From an uncultured Flavobacteriales bacterium (GTDB lineage: Bacteria > Bacteroidota > Bacteroidia > Flavobacteriales_D > Crocinitomicaceae), in the NCBI GenBank assembly GCA_913020765.1, contig CAJWAO010000002.1, positions 1-64,000 of the forward strand: 64,000 bases of DNA. Reading direction: 5' to 3'. Positions 5,493 to 59,775 of the stretch are shown here, piece by piece. Every line of letters starts with the position of its first letter. The first letter of the stretch is position 1. The position numbers and the translations under genes were made by a program. Under the pieces are notes generated by a model that was not told the DNA's origin, ran no database searches, and saw only the letters and a program-made list of their open reading frames with translations.

Positions 5493-6764
5493 TTAGAGAC
5501 GAACTACGGTTCCCATGTATTCCGGGCTTTCTCCTTGTTCAGGGTTCTGAAGAATCACCTTCCAAACGAAAGAAGTATTTTGCTTAACAAGTTCACCTGT
5601 ATTTTTGTTGATGCCTCTCCAGGCTTGGTTTGCATCTGAGGTTTCAAAGATTACGGCCCCGTTTGACGGATCTATAATAATCATCTTGAAAGGAGTATTC
5701 CTGTTTTTCAGCGCAAAGGGCATAAATGTGGTATTTCTATCATCAAAGCTATTCGGAGTGAAGGCATTGACGGCAAGCAGGTTATAGTTTTTTTCAACAA
5801 AGAACGAAACCTCATCAGAACTTTCACATCCGTTCGCATCTCTCGTGAATGCTTTTATAGAGTAACTTCCTTTATTGAACAACAAGAAGTTTTCTTTTAA
5901 GCCTGTTTTTGTAGATTGGACATTGTTGATGTACCAGCTTATTTGATTTTCAGAAAACGCTTGCACGTTTAGCTCGGGCAGTCCATTTTCAAAATTTAGA
6001 TAATCGTCTACTGAAAGCTGAATGTTCTTGGGCTCGTGCACATTAAAGGACAAAGCTGCTATGAATTCTTGATTTTGATTTAATGTACCTATTTGATATA
6101 CTCCTTTCTCATCCAATTTAAAATCGAGGGTTTGTTTTGAAGTAATTTCTTCAAGGTTTTCTTGTGGCGACAAGATAAAAATCGACTCTTCATTTGTGTT
6201 TTTGTAGGTAAAATTTTGATTTAGACAATGGTCTTTGGGCGTAGTAAGATGGAGCGGAGCTCTGGTTTCATCTGACTTCGTTGTAATAATTTCAACCTCT
6301 CTGTAGACAGGTTGTTGAAGTTCTGTACCTGTTTCTGACTTGGTGTTTTTAAGCATTGCCTCATCCGAGGGTTTTTGATGACTATCATCACAACAGGTAA
6401 TGGAATTTTCAGGTGATTTAACAACGACAGGTTCTTGTGTTTCAACTTCTATTTCGGTTTTATTGGATATCTCTGTTGCTGATTCTTTTTCAGTTTCTTT
6501 GCGCTTATCTTCTAATTTATTTTCTTGTTTGGTTATTTCGGCTTGAATTTGGCTAGGTTCGTTATCTGAATCTAAGAACAAGTATGCGGCTATAATTACT
6601 GCGGCCCCTCCAGCACCTAAAATCCATTTAAATCCATTTGAGGATTTTGGATTTCTTGCATCCAATTTTTTATTCATTCTAGACCACGCGTCCTTATTGT
6701 ATGGGAGCTCTTGGTCCTTTAATGCTTCTTTAAATAGATCTTCAATATTTCGCATCTTACTCAC
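5493..6764 (-). CDS. Anti-sigma-factor-like membrane protein with CHU_C/gliding-motility-type C-terminal domain
   Basis: 423 aa, overlapping the sigma gene by 8 nt. About 45 cytoplasmic residues (MRNIEDLFKEALKDQELPYN...AWSRM) resemble the short N-termini of Bacteroidota anti-sigma proteins. A single membrane helix follows (about 46-64), then an acidic Glu/Lys/Thr-rich linker, a CCDD cysteine pair, PKD/Ig-like segments (about 190-330), and a terminal region beginning NAFTPNSF. That last segment matches the start of the gliding-motility-associated C-terminal domain (CHU_C) used as the T9SS type B signal. A membrane anchor instead of a cleavable signal peptide is unusual for such a domain. Its role as a regulator of the sigma factor rests on position, overlap and topology. 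Confidence 0.72.
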   Translation of the reverse strand: MSKMRNIEDLFKEALKDQELPYNKDAWSRMNKKLDARNPKSSNGFKWILGAGGAAVIIAAYLFLDSDNEPSQIQAEITKQENKLEDKRKETEKESATEISNKTEIEVETQEPVVVKSPENSITCCDDSHQKPSDEAMLKNTKSETGTELQQPVYREVEIITTKSDETRAPLHLTTPKDHCLNQNFTYKNTNEESIFILSPQENLEEITSKQTLDFKLDEKGVYQIGTLNQNQEFIAALSFNVHEPKNIQLSVDDYLNFENGLPELNVQAFSENQISWYINNVQSTKTGLKENFLLFNKGSYSIKAFTRDANGCESSDEVSFFVEKNYNLLAVNAFTPNSFDDRNTTFMPFALKNRNTPFKMIIIDPSNGAVIFETSDANQAWRGINKNTGELVKQNTSFVWKVILQNPEQGESPEYMGTVVRL

Positions 6765-7329
6765 TTATTTTACTGAATTCTTCAGTTAATATTTGCTTTA
6801 AATTCTTTTTGGCCTTTGATAAATTTGATTTGGAAGTCCCTTCACTAATCCCAAGCATTTCAGCTATTTCTTTGTGGGAATAGTCCTCAATGACAAATAG
6901 ATTGAATACCGTCCTGTATCCAGGTGATAATTTTTGAATTGCTTCGACTGCTTTTTCCGCACGTAGCTCAATCATTTCGATTTTTTCGTTTTCTTCAATT
7001 TCATTTGAAGCATCCATTTTAAAATCGTTGTCATTGTCTTTTAATATTGGGGCTCTTTTAGCCTTTCTGATGGAATCAATGGCAGTATTTACGACAATAC
7101 GCCTTACCCATCCTTCAAAAGAACCTTTAAAATCAAAAACTTCCAATTTATCAAAGACCTTGATGAAACCTTCTTGCAACACCTCTTGTGCTGTATCGTG
7201 GTCTGAAATGTAGCGCATACAAACCGCTAACATTTTACCATAGAACATTTGAAACAAGGCCTCCTGCGATCTGCGGTTGTTTTGCAAACAACCCTCAACA
7301 ATTTCCTTTAATTTCTCTATATTCTCCAA
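6757..7329 (-). CDS. ECF-type RNA polymerase sigma factor (sigma-70 family)
   Basis: 190 aa, the usual ECF length. Region 2 covers about residues 25-95, with the DHDTAQEVLQEGFIKVF core-binding stretch and the -10 recognition helix around FEGWVRRIVVNTAIDSIRK. Region 4 covers about 130-185, with SPGYRTVFNLFVIEDYSHKE and the HTH IAEMLGISEGTSKSNLSKAK. Such factors direct polymerase to envelope or stress regulons. The downstream gene overlaps it and encodes a single-pass membrane protein, as expected for a sigma/anti-sigma pair. It is divergent from mdh with 133 bp between the starts. Confidence 0.95.
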   Translation of the reverse strand: MENIEKLKEIVEGCLQNNRRSQEALFQMFYGKMLAVCMRYISDHDTAQEVLQEGFIKVFDKLEVFDFKGSFEGWVRRIVVNTAIDSIRKAKRAPILKDNDNDFKMDASNEIEENEKIEMIELRAEKAVEAIQKLSPGYRTVFNLFVIEDYSHKEIAEMLGISEGTSKSNLSKAKKNLKQILTEEFSKISE

Positions 7330-7462
7330 GTCTCAACAAAATTTAAACGTATCAATAGTTTCAGCGTTGCCTTCCGAAGTAAATAAATCAACGTTAAATA
7401 AAACGATTTTATATTAAATGTATTATTTTCGTGTCGATATTTAAATAAATAAATAATTACAA

Positions 7463-56876: not shown

Positions 56877-59600
56877 TTAGCGAATCACATTTACGTATCC
56901 GGTGTGTATTTTTCGTCCGTCATTTTCACGCTCCTTGTACATGGCTCTCCAAATATAGGTTCCATCTGGTACAACCGTGTTATTGTATGTTCCATCCCAT
57001 TCCGCCTTGATATCATTTGTTTCCCAGATCGTTTCCCCCCACTTGTTAAAAATTTCTAGGGTGAAGTTTTGAAAATCAATTCCCTCAACAAAAATTGTCC
57101 AAGTTTGATTGTGCTCATCGTCATCAGGTGTAAATGAGTTTGGAGCATAAAATATGACATCAGGAACAATTTCAACTTCTAAAGTTGTTGTATCCGAGCA
57201 TCCCTCGTTGGTTGTTGCGACAAGAGTGATTGGGTAGGTTCCAGATACACCTTCGGGAAAGGTGATTAATGCACTTCCCTCATTACTTACCAATGATATA
57301 GCACCGGGGCTTATCCATTGGAAGTCAATGACATCACCTACGCATGCTTCGGTTGTTTGTATTTCAGTTTCAAACCAGGTTGCAGGGTTTTTAGATAAAG
57401 TAAAGTTAGCGGTTGGTGGAGGAGTAACAGTTACAATGTTTTGAAACTCTTCGGTATAGATGCAGCCATACGTAGAAGTTATGGTCACAAAACAGTCATA
57501 AGTTCCGGCAAATTCGAAAGTGGCTTGTATTGATTCTGTACCGTTTGCTAAGATTGTTTCTCCATTTGAAAAAGCAAATTGTGTGGTTTGGACTTCTGCT
57601 CCTTGAATCGTGTTATTGTATATTGTAAAATCTCCGGGGACACATTGTGCATCAATGTTGGGTGCTATAATGGGTGAAATATTCGTCGGGAAAGTAACCG
57701 AAAGGCATTCGGTTGTCTCCGGCGAACCACATTCTTCGCTGAGTGTAACGCAATATTGGGTATTACTCGCTACTGGGTTCACAGTAATGGACTGTCCTAC
57801 GTCTACACTTGATCCATTTGCAGTCCAGGTGTAAACATAGGGACTTGACCCTCCATTTCCCGTAGCTTCAAGATTTATAAAAGCATCGCTACAGATAGTG
57901 CTATCTGGTGTTAAATTCGAAATACTTAATGCATCTGGTTCACCTATCGTAGCTGTAATTTGATCAGAGCATCCATTGTCATCGGTTACGGTTATTACGT
58001 AGGTTCCCGCGTATAGATTTGTTGCTTCATTTGTTGTGCTCGAATTTTGATCCCAGCTGAAGGTATAGGGTGGTGTACCTTCCGAAACACCGACCTGAAT
58101 CGAGCCATTGTTCGCACTGTTGCATGTTGCGTCATTTTGATCTGCAATATTTAAATTCATTATTGGGATTTCACCAACGGTTACAGAAATGTTCCCTACA
58201 CAACCAGAACTTGCCGATATTTCACATGTATAAACACCTGCAGCAAGATTAGTAGCCGTTGCAGTGGTTTGTCCGTTACTCCAAATAAACGTTTCTGACC
58301 CATCAGAGGGTGTCATTATGGCCGTGGCGGTCCCGTCTGTTCCACCTGCGCAGCTCACAGGTGTCGAGGTTGAGGTAAATGAAGAAGGGTTGTCACCTAC
58401 AGTCACAAGTGCGGTGGCTCCACAACCGTTACCATCCATCTGCGATACCGTGTAAGTTCCTGGCAGCACATTGCTAACCGTCGATGTTGCCGCTCCAAGA
58501 GCTGGCCAAGAGTACGAGTAAGGCGGCGGAGACCCTGGGCCTGGTGTTGCTGTAACAGAACCAACTCCTTGACCACAAATATCATCGGTGGACGATACAA
58601 TCACCTCCGGGGAGGCTGTAGTTATATAAGTCGTGTCTATTGAAAGCCCACCAATCGGCGTTTCGCAGGAAATTGCTCCTAAAAACCATCCGACCACACC
58701 CACAGCAGCGTCTGCTGTTACCTCAAGAGGCTGACCTGGAACAAAATCAATATCTTCTCCTAGTGTACTTTGCCAAGACATTGAAACACCAGAACCGGTT
58801 ATCTGAAGGTATGGAATGGCTGTAATGTTATAATCATTTCCCCCTAAATACTCCCATTTGTATCCATCTTGATCTGCAACCCAAACGCTATTATTTCTAC
58901 CTGGTGTCATGTGCGCAATTGTGCCGTTAGAATTCTGAATGCCTTGAATTGCGAGACTCCCATTCCATGTCCCGCAGATTGATTTATTTCCGATGTGAAT
59001 TTCAATATCATTGGAAGTCTCAAACAATATAACACTCAAGTAATTACATTCTTGTATTCCACATTGAAATTGACCAATTTCTTTGTAGATAATGACGCAC
59101 ATACGATTTGGTGCTGTTCCAATCGTTTGGTACTGAATGTTGCCCAAGGGGCTTGTCAAAGCACTAGGGTTCATGTCTTGGTAGGCTGGCATAATTGCGT
59201 TGTGCGTAGCCGCTGTTGCTGTTGAAGGCAATGGTCCTACTGCTCCCAGTGCCCATGGACAATATCCTCCGGCATTTCCCATGTCGAAAGAAATTATTCC
59301 ATTTGAACCTATCACAAATTGGTTGTATGTACTGTCATAAAAAGTGAAATCAAAACCAATGTTTGCAGCATCACTCCAAGAATCGTCCGTTAGTGTGGGA
59401 ATGATTGTTGGGGCGTCCAAATATATTCCACTAATGTTCAAACCTTGTCCAATGGTACTACATAAATCAACAAGAACAGTTTCGCCTTCACATACTGTTG
59501 TATCTTCACCCAAACAAATATTTACTTGACCGGAGATATTTGCGGTTAATAACAGGAAAAGGGTCCAACAAAAACTGTTTTTAAAACTTCTTTTCATCAT
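56877..59600 (-). CDS. Gliding-motility-associated (CHU_C, T9SS type B) protein with SprB-like repeats
   Basis: 907 aa. After the signal peptide (about 1-24, LLLTANISGQ) comes an N-terminal domain of about 280 residues with several Cys. Next follow at least three SprB-like repeats of about 75 residues, recognisable as the recurring GTYT/GVYTC...G/NGCxxxxxxxxGxP pattern (about 345-575). A PKD/Ig-like region with further Cys follows, then the CHU_C domain beginning FYAPNSFTPDDDEHN (about 815) and ending in TGYVNVIR. It is probably secreted by the T9SS and attached to the cell surface, perhaps as an adhesin (inference). It heads the DUF4197/phosphorylase unit. Confidence 0.92.
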   Translation of the reverse strand: MMKRSFKNSFCWTLFLLLTANISGQVNICLGEDTTVCEGETVLVDLCSTIGQGLNISGIYLDAPTIIPTLTDDSWSDAANIGFDFTFYDSTYNQFVIGSNGIISFDMGNAGGYCPWALGAVGPLPSTATAATHNAIMPAYQDMNPSALTSPLGNIQYQTIGTAPNRMCVIIYKEIGQFQCGIQECNYLSVILFETSNDIEIHIGNKSICGTWNGSLAIQGIQNSNGTIAHMTPGRNNSVWVADQDGYKWEYLGGNDYNITAIPYLQITGSGVSMSWQSTLGEDIDFVPGQPLEVTADAAVGVVGWFLGAISCETPIGGLSIDTTYITTASPEVIVSSTDDICGQGVGSVTATPGPGSPPPYSYSWPALGAATSTVSNVLPGTYTVSQMDGNGCGATALVTVGDNPSSFTSTSTPVSCAGGTDGTATAIMTPSDGSETFIWSNGQTTATATNLAAGVYTCEISASSGCVGNISVTVGEIPIMNLNIADQNDATCNSANNGSIQVGVSEGTPPYTFSWDQNSSTTNEATNLYAGTYVITVTDDNGCSDQITATIGEPDALSISNLTPDSTICSDAFINLEATGNGGSSPYVYTWTANGSSVDVGQSITVNPVASNTQYCVTLSEECGSPETTECLSVTFPTNISPIIAPNIDAQCVPGDFTIYNNTIQGAEVQTTQFAFSNGETILANGTESIQATFEFAGTYDCFVTITSTYGCIYTEEFQNIVTVTPPPTANFTLSKNPATWFETEIQTTEACVGDVIDFQWISPGAISLVSNEGSALITFPEGVSGTYPITLVATTNEGCSDTTTLEVEIVPDVIFYAPNSFTPDDDEHNQTWTIFVEGIDFQNFTLEIFNKWGETIWETNDIKAEWDGTYNNTVVPDGTYIWRAMYKERENDGRKIHTGYVNVIR

Positions 59601-59775
59601 CTCAAATAATCTTCAAATGGTTAACGTATTCGACTCTATTAGGTTGCTTAAGATTCGGTAAAATTAATGCAATTTATTGTCTATAAAAATTAGATGAAAA
59701 CTTAATGAACAGTGAATATGTCCAAATCACTTTTAACTTTTTGATAAATAACATTTAACATTAGCAAATCTTGCT

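Follow-up and report, generated by a model that had tools for sequence, protein, structure and literature searches.

In the window, the whole stretch of 64,000 nucleotides that was analysed, an ECF sigma factor gene is directly followed by a gene for a single-pass membrane protein whose C-terminal domain (CTD) is related to the sorting signals of type B T9SS cargo; this observation is confirmed as real. The membrane protein is probably an anti-sigma factor carrying a non-exportable mimic of the type B signal, by which adhesin expression would be coupled to T9SS export. For the wider proposal, a Bacteroidia-wide class of anti-sigma factors using such a mimic as periplasmic sensor for a sigma factor that transcribes signal-bearing genes, the chances appear evenly balanced. 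The computed basis consists of the pairing, the architecture, a self-regulatory site, targets biased to type B cargo, CTD homology and motif loss; what we infer are the binding of the sigma factor, the release mechanism, the signal and its sign. The features of the operon are the following:

5493..6755, reverse strand: gene for a 420-aa membrane protein, the putative anti-sigma factor, starting with the ATG at 6755
5496..5789, reverse strand: C-terminal domain homologous to the type B CTD (CHU_C), residues 323-420, RWG motif absent
5790..6239, reverse strand: two PKD/Ig-like domains, residues 173-322, pLDDT about 95
6240..6566, reverse strand: acidic linker, residues 64-172, predicted to be disordered, pLDDT < 50 over most of it
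6567..6623, reverse strand: single transmembrane segment, residues 45-63, hydropathy 1.79
6627..6755, reverse strand: cytoplasmic N-terminal module, residues 1-43, helices predicted at 4-13 and 21-32, W24 invariant
6757..7329, reverse strand: ECF sigma factor gene, 190 aa, TTG start
7344..7371, reverse strand: predicted self-regulatory sigma promoter, GGCAACG-N15-CGTTTA, its motif found in 90/98 sigma upstream regions

The product of the sigma gene matches Sigma70_r2 with 55 bits and Sigma70_r4_2 with 64 bits, both well above the cut-off, and its composition, regions 2 and 4 only in about 190 aa, is that of the ECF class, in agreement with the sequence-only reading, which had placed a 190-aa ECF sigma gene beside the membrane-protein gene. 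Close relatives of the sigma gene have a non-ATG start at a conserved position. The same reading had reported an 8-nt overlap of the two genes, which is not borne out: it assumed a GTG start at 6764 that is absent from close relatives. Counted from the conserved ATG at 6755, the spacing is 1 nt, and at other loci it is usually between -8 and +20 nt, all gene starts being predictions.

Homologues were gathered at several levels, in relatives, in the order and in the class, as well as on named contigs, and several loci are draft metagenome assemblies. At 112 non-redundant loci of the class Bacteroidia the membrane gene immediately follows an ECF sigma gene, so that it is encoded with its own sigma factor, as anti-sigma factors are; the only homologues with no adjacent sigma gene (L025, L108, L109 and L230) are all fragments at contig ends. 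The survey of homologues thus upholds a conserved pairing, and the repetition of both pairing and domain order in 112 non-redundant pairs excludes chance. A phylum-wide search at E 1e-45 returned no full-length homologue beyond the class. Co-occurrence with SprA was considered as evidence for a link with the T9SS and was dropped: SprA is present in 191/198 class genomes, which makes co-occurrence uninformative, and a match to the membrane protein is missing from five SprA-negative genomes (G163, G170, G178, G210, G275) and likewise from nine SprA-positive ones. In the genus g32 of family f3 (G052, G068, G079, G089, G092, G098, G110, G131) no full-length homologue is found among the matches listed, and T9SS cargo-type matches persist in most of these genomes; a loss of the pair in this genus is suggested.

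The topology of the membrane protein is, by prediction, that of an anti-sigma factor, with a cytoplasmic N-terminus, a membrane segment and an extracytoplasmic sensor part. The single strong hydrophobic stretch at residues 45-63 bears out the earlier description of a single-pass protein with a short cytoplasmic N-terminus, and every family member has one hydropathy peak ahead of the linker. A cleavable signal peptide, named beforehand as an observation that would speak against the reading, was looked for and is absent, the transmembrane segment starting at residue 45 behind a charged cytoplasmic segment. The linker has a median length of 113 residues across the family and is net acidic in 94/112 members; the CC pair reported within it is present at 125-126, but only in close relatives. 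The Ig/PKD-like parts are also present as described, and in orthologues the PKD profile exceeds its cut-off. The N-terminal helices are modelled with moderate confidence, and the folded periplasmic part has a predicted pLDDT of about 95. Among the invariant or nearly invariant residues are W24 of the cytoplasmic module and two periplasmic cysteines, C177 and C310. In L094, L095 and L096 the cytoplasmic module, the candidate for sigma binding, is present twice in tandem. A PDB sequence search with the window protein gave no match, and Foldseek on the predicted model returned generic Ig-like adhesins only.

The combination of PKD domains with a type B CTD homologue, as in cargo, could also indicate a protein of the cell surface, or T9SS cargo, lying beside a sigma gene by chance. 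This is very improbable, as the linkage to the sigma gene is fixed, a 43-residue cytoplasmic module with an invariant W24 precedes the transmembrane segment, and two hallmarks of type B cargo, a cleavable Sec signal peptide and the RWG-bearing CTD motifs, are both missing.

Known anti-sigma profiles in Pfam and NCBIfam do not match the N-terminus of the membrane protein, and mutual information between the sigma factor and this N-terminus is no higher than for other regions. Gene order and topology suit a sigma regulator of either sign, and FecR-type regulators have short cytoplasmic N-termini; the protein might thus be a positive co-factor or signal receptor required by the sigma factor, as FecR is for FecI, instead of an inhibitor. 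Such a role seems unlikely, with no TonB receptor gene adjacent, FecR profiles unmatched, and single downstream membrane partners being more often inhibitors. For the preferred anti-sigma function, we infer that residues 1-43 may bind the sigma factor, since their two-helix size resembles that of class II anti-sigma factors (PMC7406223). A class I anti-sigma neighbour is known for few Bacteroidetes ECF sigma factors, namely 6% (PMC7406223).

The C-terminal segment starting NAFTPNSF had been described as CHU_C-like. The segment is present; the window copy, however, misses the CHU_C cut-off (15.2 bits, cut-off 27) because its genus has lost the GDGxND loop, and it gives no match to TIGR04131. 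Homology is supported through relatives: five of the orthologues L035-L040, from other Flavobacteriales families, reach 45-60 bits with CHU_C and have PKD over its cut-off, and hhalign aligns the tails of the window lineage with those of the genome's own type B cargo at 97.2%, E 4.3e-11. Judged by these profile comparisons, the tail is homologous to the type B sorting domains of the T9SS (CHU_C/TIGR04131).

In 14/14 of the type B cargo CTDs checked, the second strand carries an RWG-type motif. Conversely, regular expressions for RWG match only 3-5/112 of the anti-sigma CTDs, and the inspected matches look unlike genuine RWG. GDGxND is lost in the window genus and kept in some orthologues, so that the argument for lost secretability leans mainly on RWG. 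In F. johnsoniae, secretion depends on all five motifs of the type B CTD (PMC12618676). The CTD of the membrane protein may thus be recognisable by T9SS partners yet non-exportable, and it may sense the availability of these partners.

A second ECF sigma/membrane pair occurs in the same genome on contig C80 (L144, G000:C80:2500-4300), with genes at 196-726 and 716-1672, both on the forward strand; its membrane protein of 319 aa has a similar N-terminal module, one transmembrane segment and no PKD match. This protein is above the cut-off for both CHU_C and TIGR04131, and its CTD reads NRQNQ at the position where cargo has NRWGQ.

The CTD-like domain of the window protein could instead be no more than an unspecific Ig-like sensor of the envelope, or a spacer, with the protein still acting as anti-sigma factor to a sigma factor of adhesin and T9SS genes; the signal would then be unrelated to cargo handling, such as envelope stress, surface contact or ligand binding. 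Extracytoplasmic sensors commonly have PKD/Ig modules, RWG is lost, as is GDGxND in the window genus, and the structural matches are generic Ig-like adhesins, all of which would suit this explanation. Against it, the type B CTD is retained across many families in the 112 pairs, and the second sigma/CHU_C pair of the genome is independent; together with the target bias described below, which favours genes with the same CTD class, these observations leave a generic sensor as a minority possibility, of roughly one chance in four.

Upstream of the sigma genes, the element GGCAACC-N16-CGTYWW is found in 90 of the 98 loci, and in none of the 98 in a reversed control, a few loci of this set being counted twice as they were fetched by two routes. 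The sigma operon would thus be transcribed from its own predicted, promoter-like site. Only two matches to the strict pattern occur in this genome, at the sigma operon and at a gene for type B cargo on contig C66.

With 17 TIGR04131 and 72 TIGR04183 matches, the genome has both types of T9SS cargo. A promoter matrix, trained on the sigma-operon sites alone and scored from -150 to +60 nt around gene starts, gives a median of 5.8 for type B cargo (n=14; 8/14 at >= 5.5), -5.8 for type A cargo (n=20; 2/20 at >= 5.5) and -4.1 for the control genes of the window; type B scores differ from type A scores with p=2e-4 and from dinucleotide shuffles with p=2e-5. One type A cargo gene (C3) has a site; of the two type A genes at >= 5.5, one, L151, sits just behind a type B gene and is ambiguous. 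In other families the bias recurs, clearly in G030 (p=1.5e-4) and weakly in G037 (p=0.009). Strict sites agree in position: in this genome, 3 of 8 non-self matches lie right before type B cargo, where 0.004 are expected, and in G030 2 of 7 do so. In the closest relative, G017, at least three precede type B cargo, including one of 4395 aa, and others lie before a small gene that precedes a 2622-aa cargo gene and before porT/sprT (NF052311 equivalog). A porT site is found in this genome as well (L239, G000:C10). Roughly half of the type B cargo genes lack a recognisable site, and a loose pattern is not enriched genome-wide, forward counts being close to the control, so that the evidence for the regulon is positional.

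Within the window, the predicted target is an adhesin gene:

56877..59600, reverse strand: predicted target gene, coding for a type B T9SS cargo protein of 907 aa that has SprB repeats (SprB repeat 66, CHU_C 62, TIGR04131 47 bits)
59619..59651, reverse strand: predicted target promoter before the SprB-repeat adhesin gene, matrix score 12.7

This score is the second highest among the 52 window genes, the first being that of the sigma gene itself. From these predicted sites, the sigma factor appears to turn on type B cargo genes, and the occurrence of the predicted motif before type B cargo genes and porT/sprT gives independent support to a link with the T9SS. The sequence-only reading, in which the domain was proposed as a periplasmic sensor of T9SS function that controls the sigma factor, is partly supported overall. 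In two species the site at porT/sprT (L249:377-1084, forward strand; L239, G000:C10) ends 6 nt before the ATG, suggesting a leaderless or very short-leader transcript, if the site is used. In G017, an identical site precedes the same 4395-aa cargo gene start on two contigs (C1:1543224 and C6:14945); either the gene was duplicated recently or the assembly contains it twice.

We propose that the ECF sigma factor and the anti-sigma factor, which is co-transcribed with it and sits in the inner membrane, act together as a feedback switch that controls the type B adhesins of the T9SS. The two-helix cytoplasmic N-terminus would retain the sigma factor, and the transmembrane segment with the linker of about 100 residues would place the PKD domains and the CTD look-alike in the periplasm, within reach of the outer-membrane translocon. 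With its fold kept and RWG gone, the look-alike could meet the partners of cargo CTDs and yet escape export. Binding of free cargo-handling partners to the look-alike would then release the sigma factor; alternatively, with opposite sign, crowding by cargo might displace the look-alike. The released sigma factor would transcribe its own operon, type B cargo genes and porT/sprT from GGCAACC-N16-CGTYWW promoters.

In the literature found, the control of type B adhesins is sparsely described, and the pair supplies a candidate family of sigma partners together with a clear promoter motif and predicted targets that can be put to the test. It suggests that a secretion signal was co-opted to sense the route by which it is itself exported; if this is true, adhesin production would be matched to T9SS capacity and the export machinery.

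Among open-licence papers, a search of the literature on CHU_C or gliding C-terminal domains with sigma or anti-sigma factors gave nothing relevant, and no CTD-bearing anti-sigma factor is described. The PorXY-SigP system of Porphyromonas gingivalis includes an ECF sigma factor that controls T9SS genes, porT among them, and a CTD-bearing protein, PorA, that affects the PorXY-SigP signal (PMC4800418, PMC7712824). It resembles the window pair in that an ECF sigma factor is tied to T9SS genes including porT and that a CTD protein is involved. However, SigP is governed by the response regulator PorX and its reported motif is unlike GGCAACC-N16-CGT; PorA is a surface CTD protein restricted to Porphyromonas, whereas the CTD of the window system is fused to the membrane partner of the sigma factor; and the predicted targets in the window system include type B cargo, unlike those of PorXY-SigP.

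In F. psychrophilum, GldN and PorU are expressed from SM6 promoters with a CGT box, as is the ECF/anti-sigma operon THC0290_1774-1773 (PMC9723704). The CGT -10 box, the T9SS genes and the presence of an ECF/anti-sigma operon among the targets are shared with the window system, and the SM6 regulon would fit it; for THC0290_1774-1773 the main text of that paper gives no anti-sigma architecture or CTD, and the likeness to the window family is one of regulon description. Anti-sigma factors of the CnrY type (class II) are membrane proteins whose cytoplasmic part is a very short domain of two helices and whose genes adjoin an ECF sigma gene (PMC7406223). The window protein would be similar in its two-helix cytoplasmic domain, predicted with moderate confidence, and in its adjacent sigma gene, while CnrY is a metal-response regulator with neither PKD domains nor CTD, so that the likeness is one of size and layout, no sequence relationship being shown. 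With type B T9SS cargo (CHU_C/TIGR04131, SprB family) the window protein shares the C-terminal PKD domains and type B CTD; unlike cargo, it has no signal peptide, is predicted to be anchored in the inner membrane, is paired with a sigma factor and lacks RWG. Finally, the proposed substrate-mimic loop follows a logic like that of flagellar FlgM control, but it would be built from the secretion signal itself.
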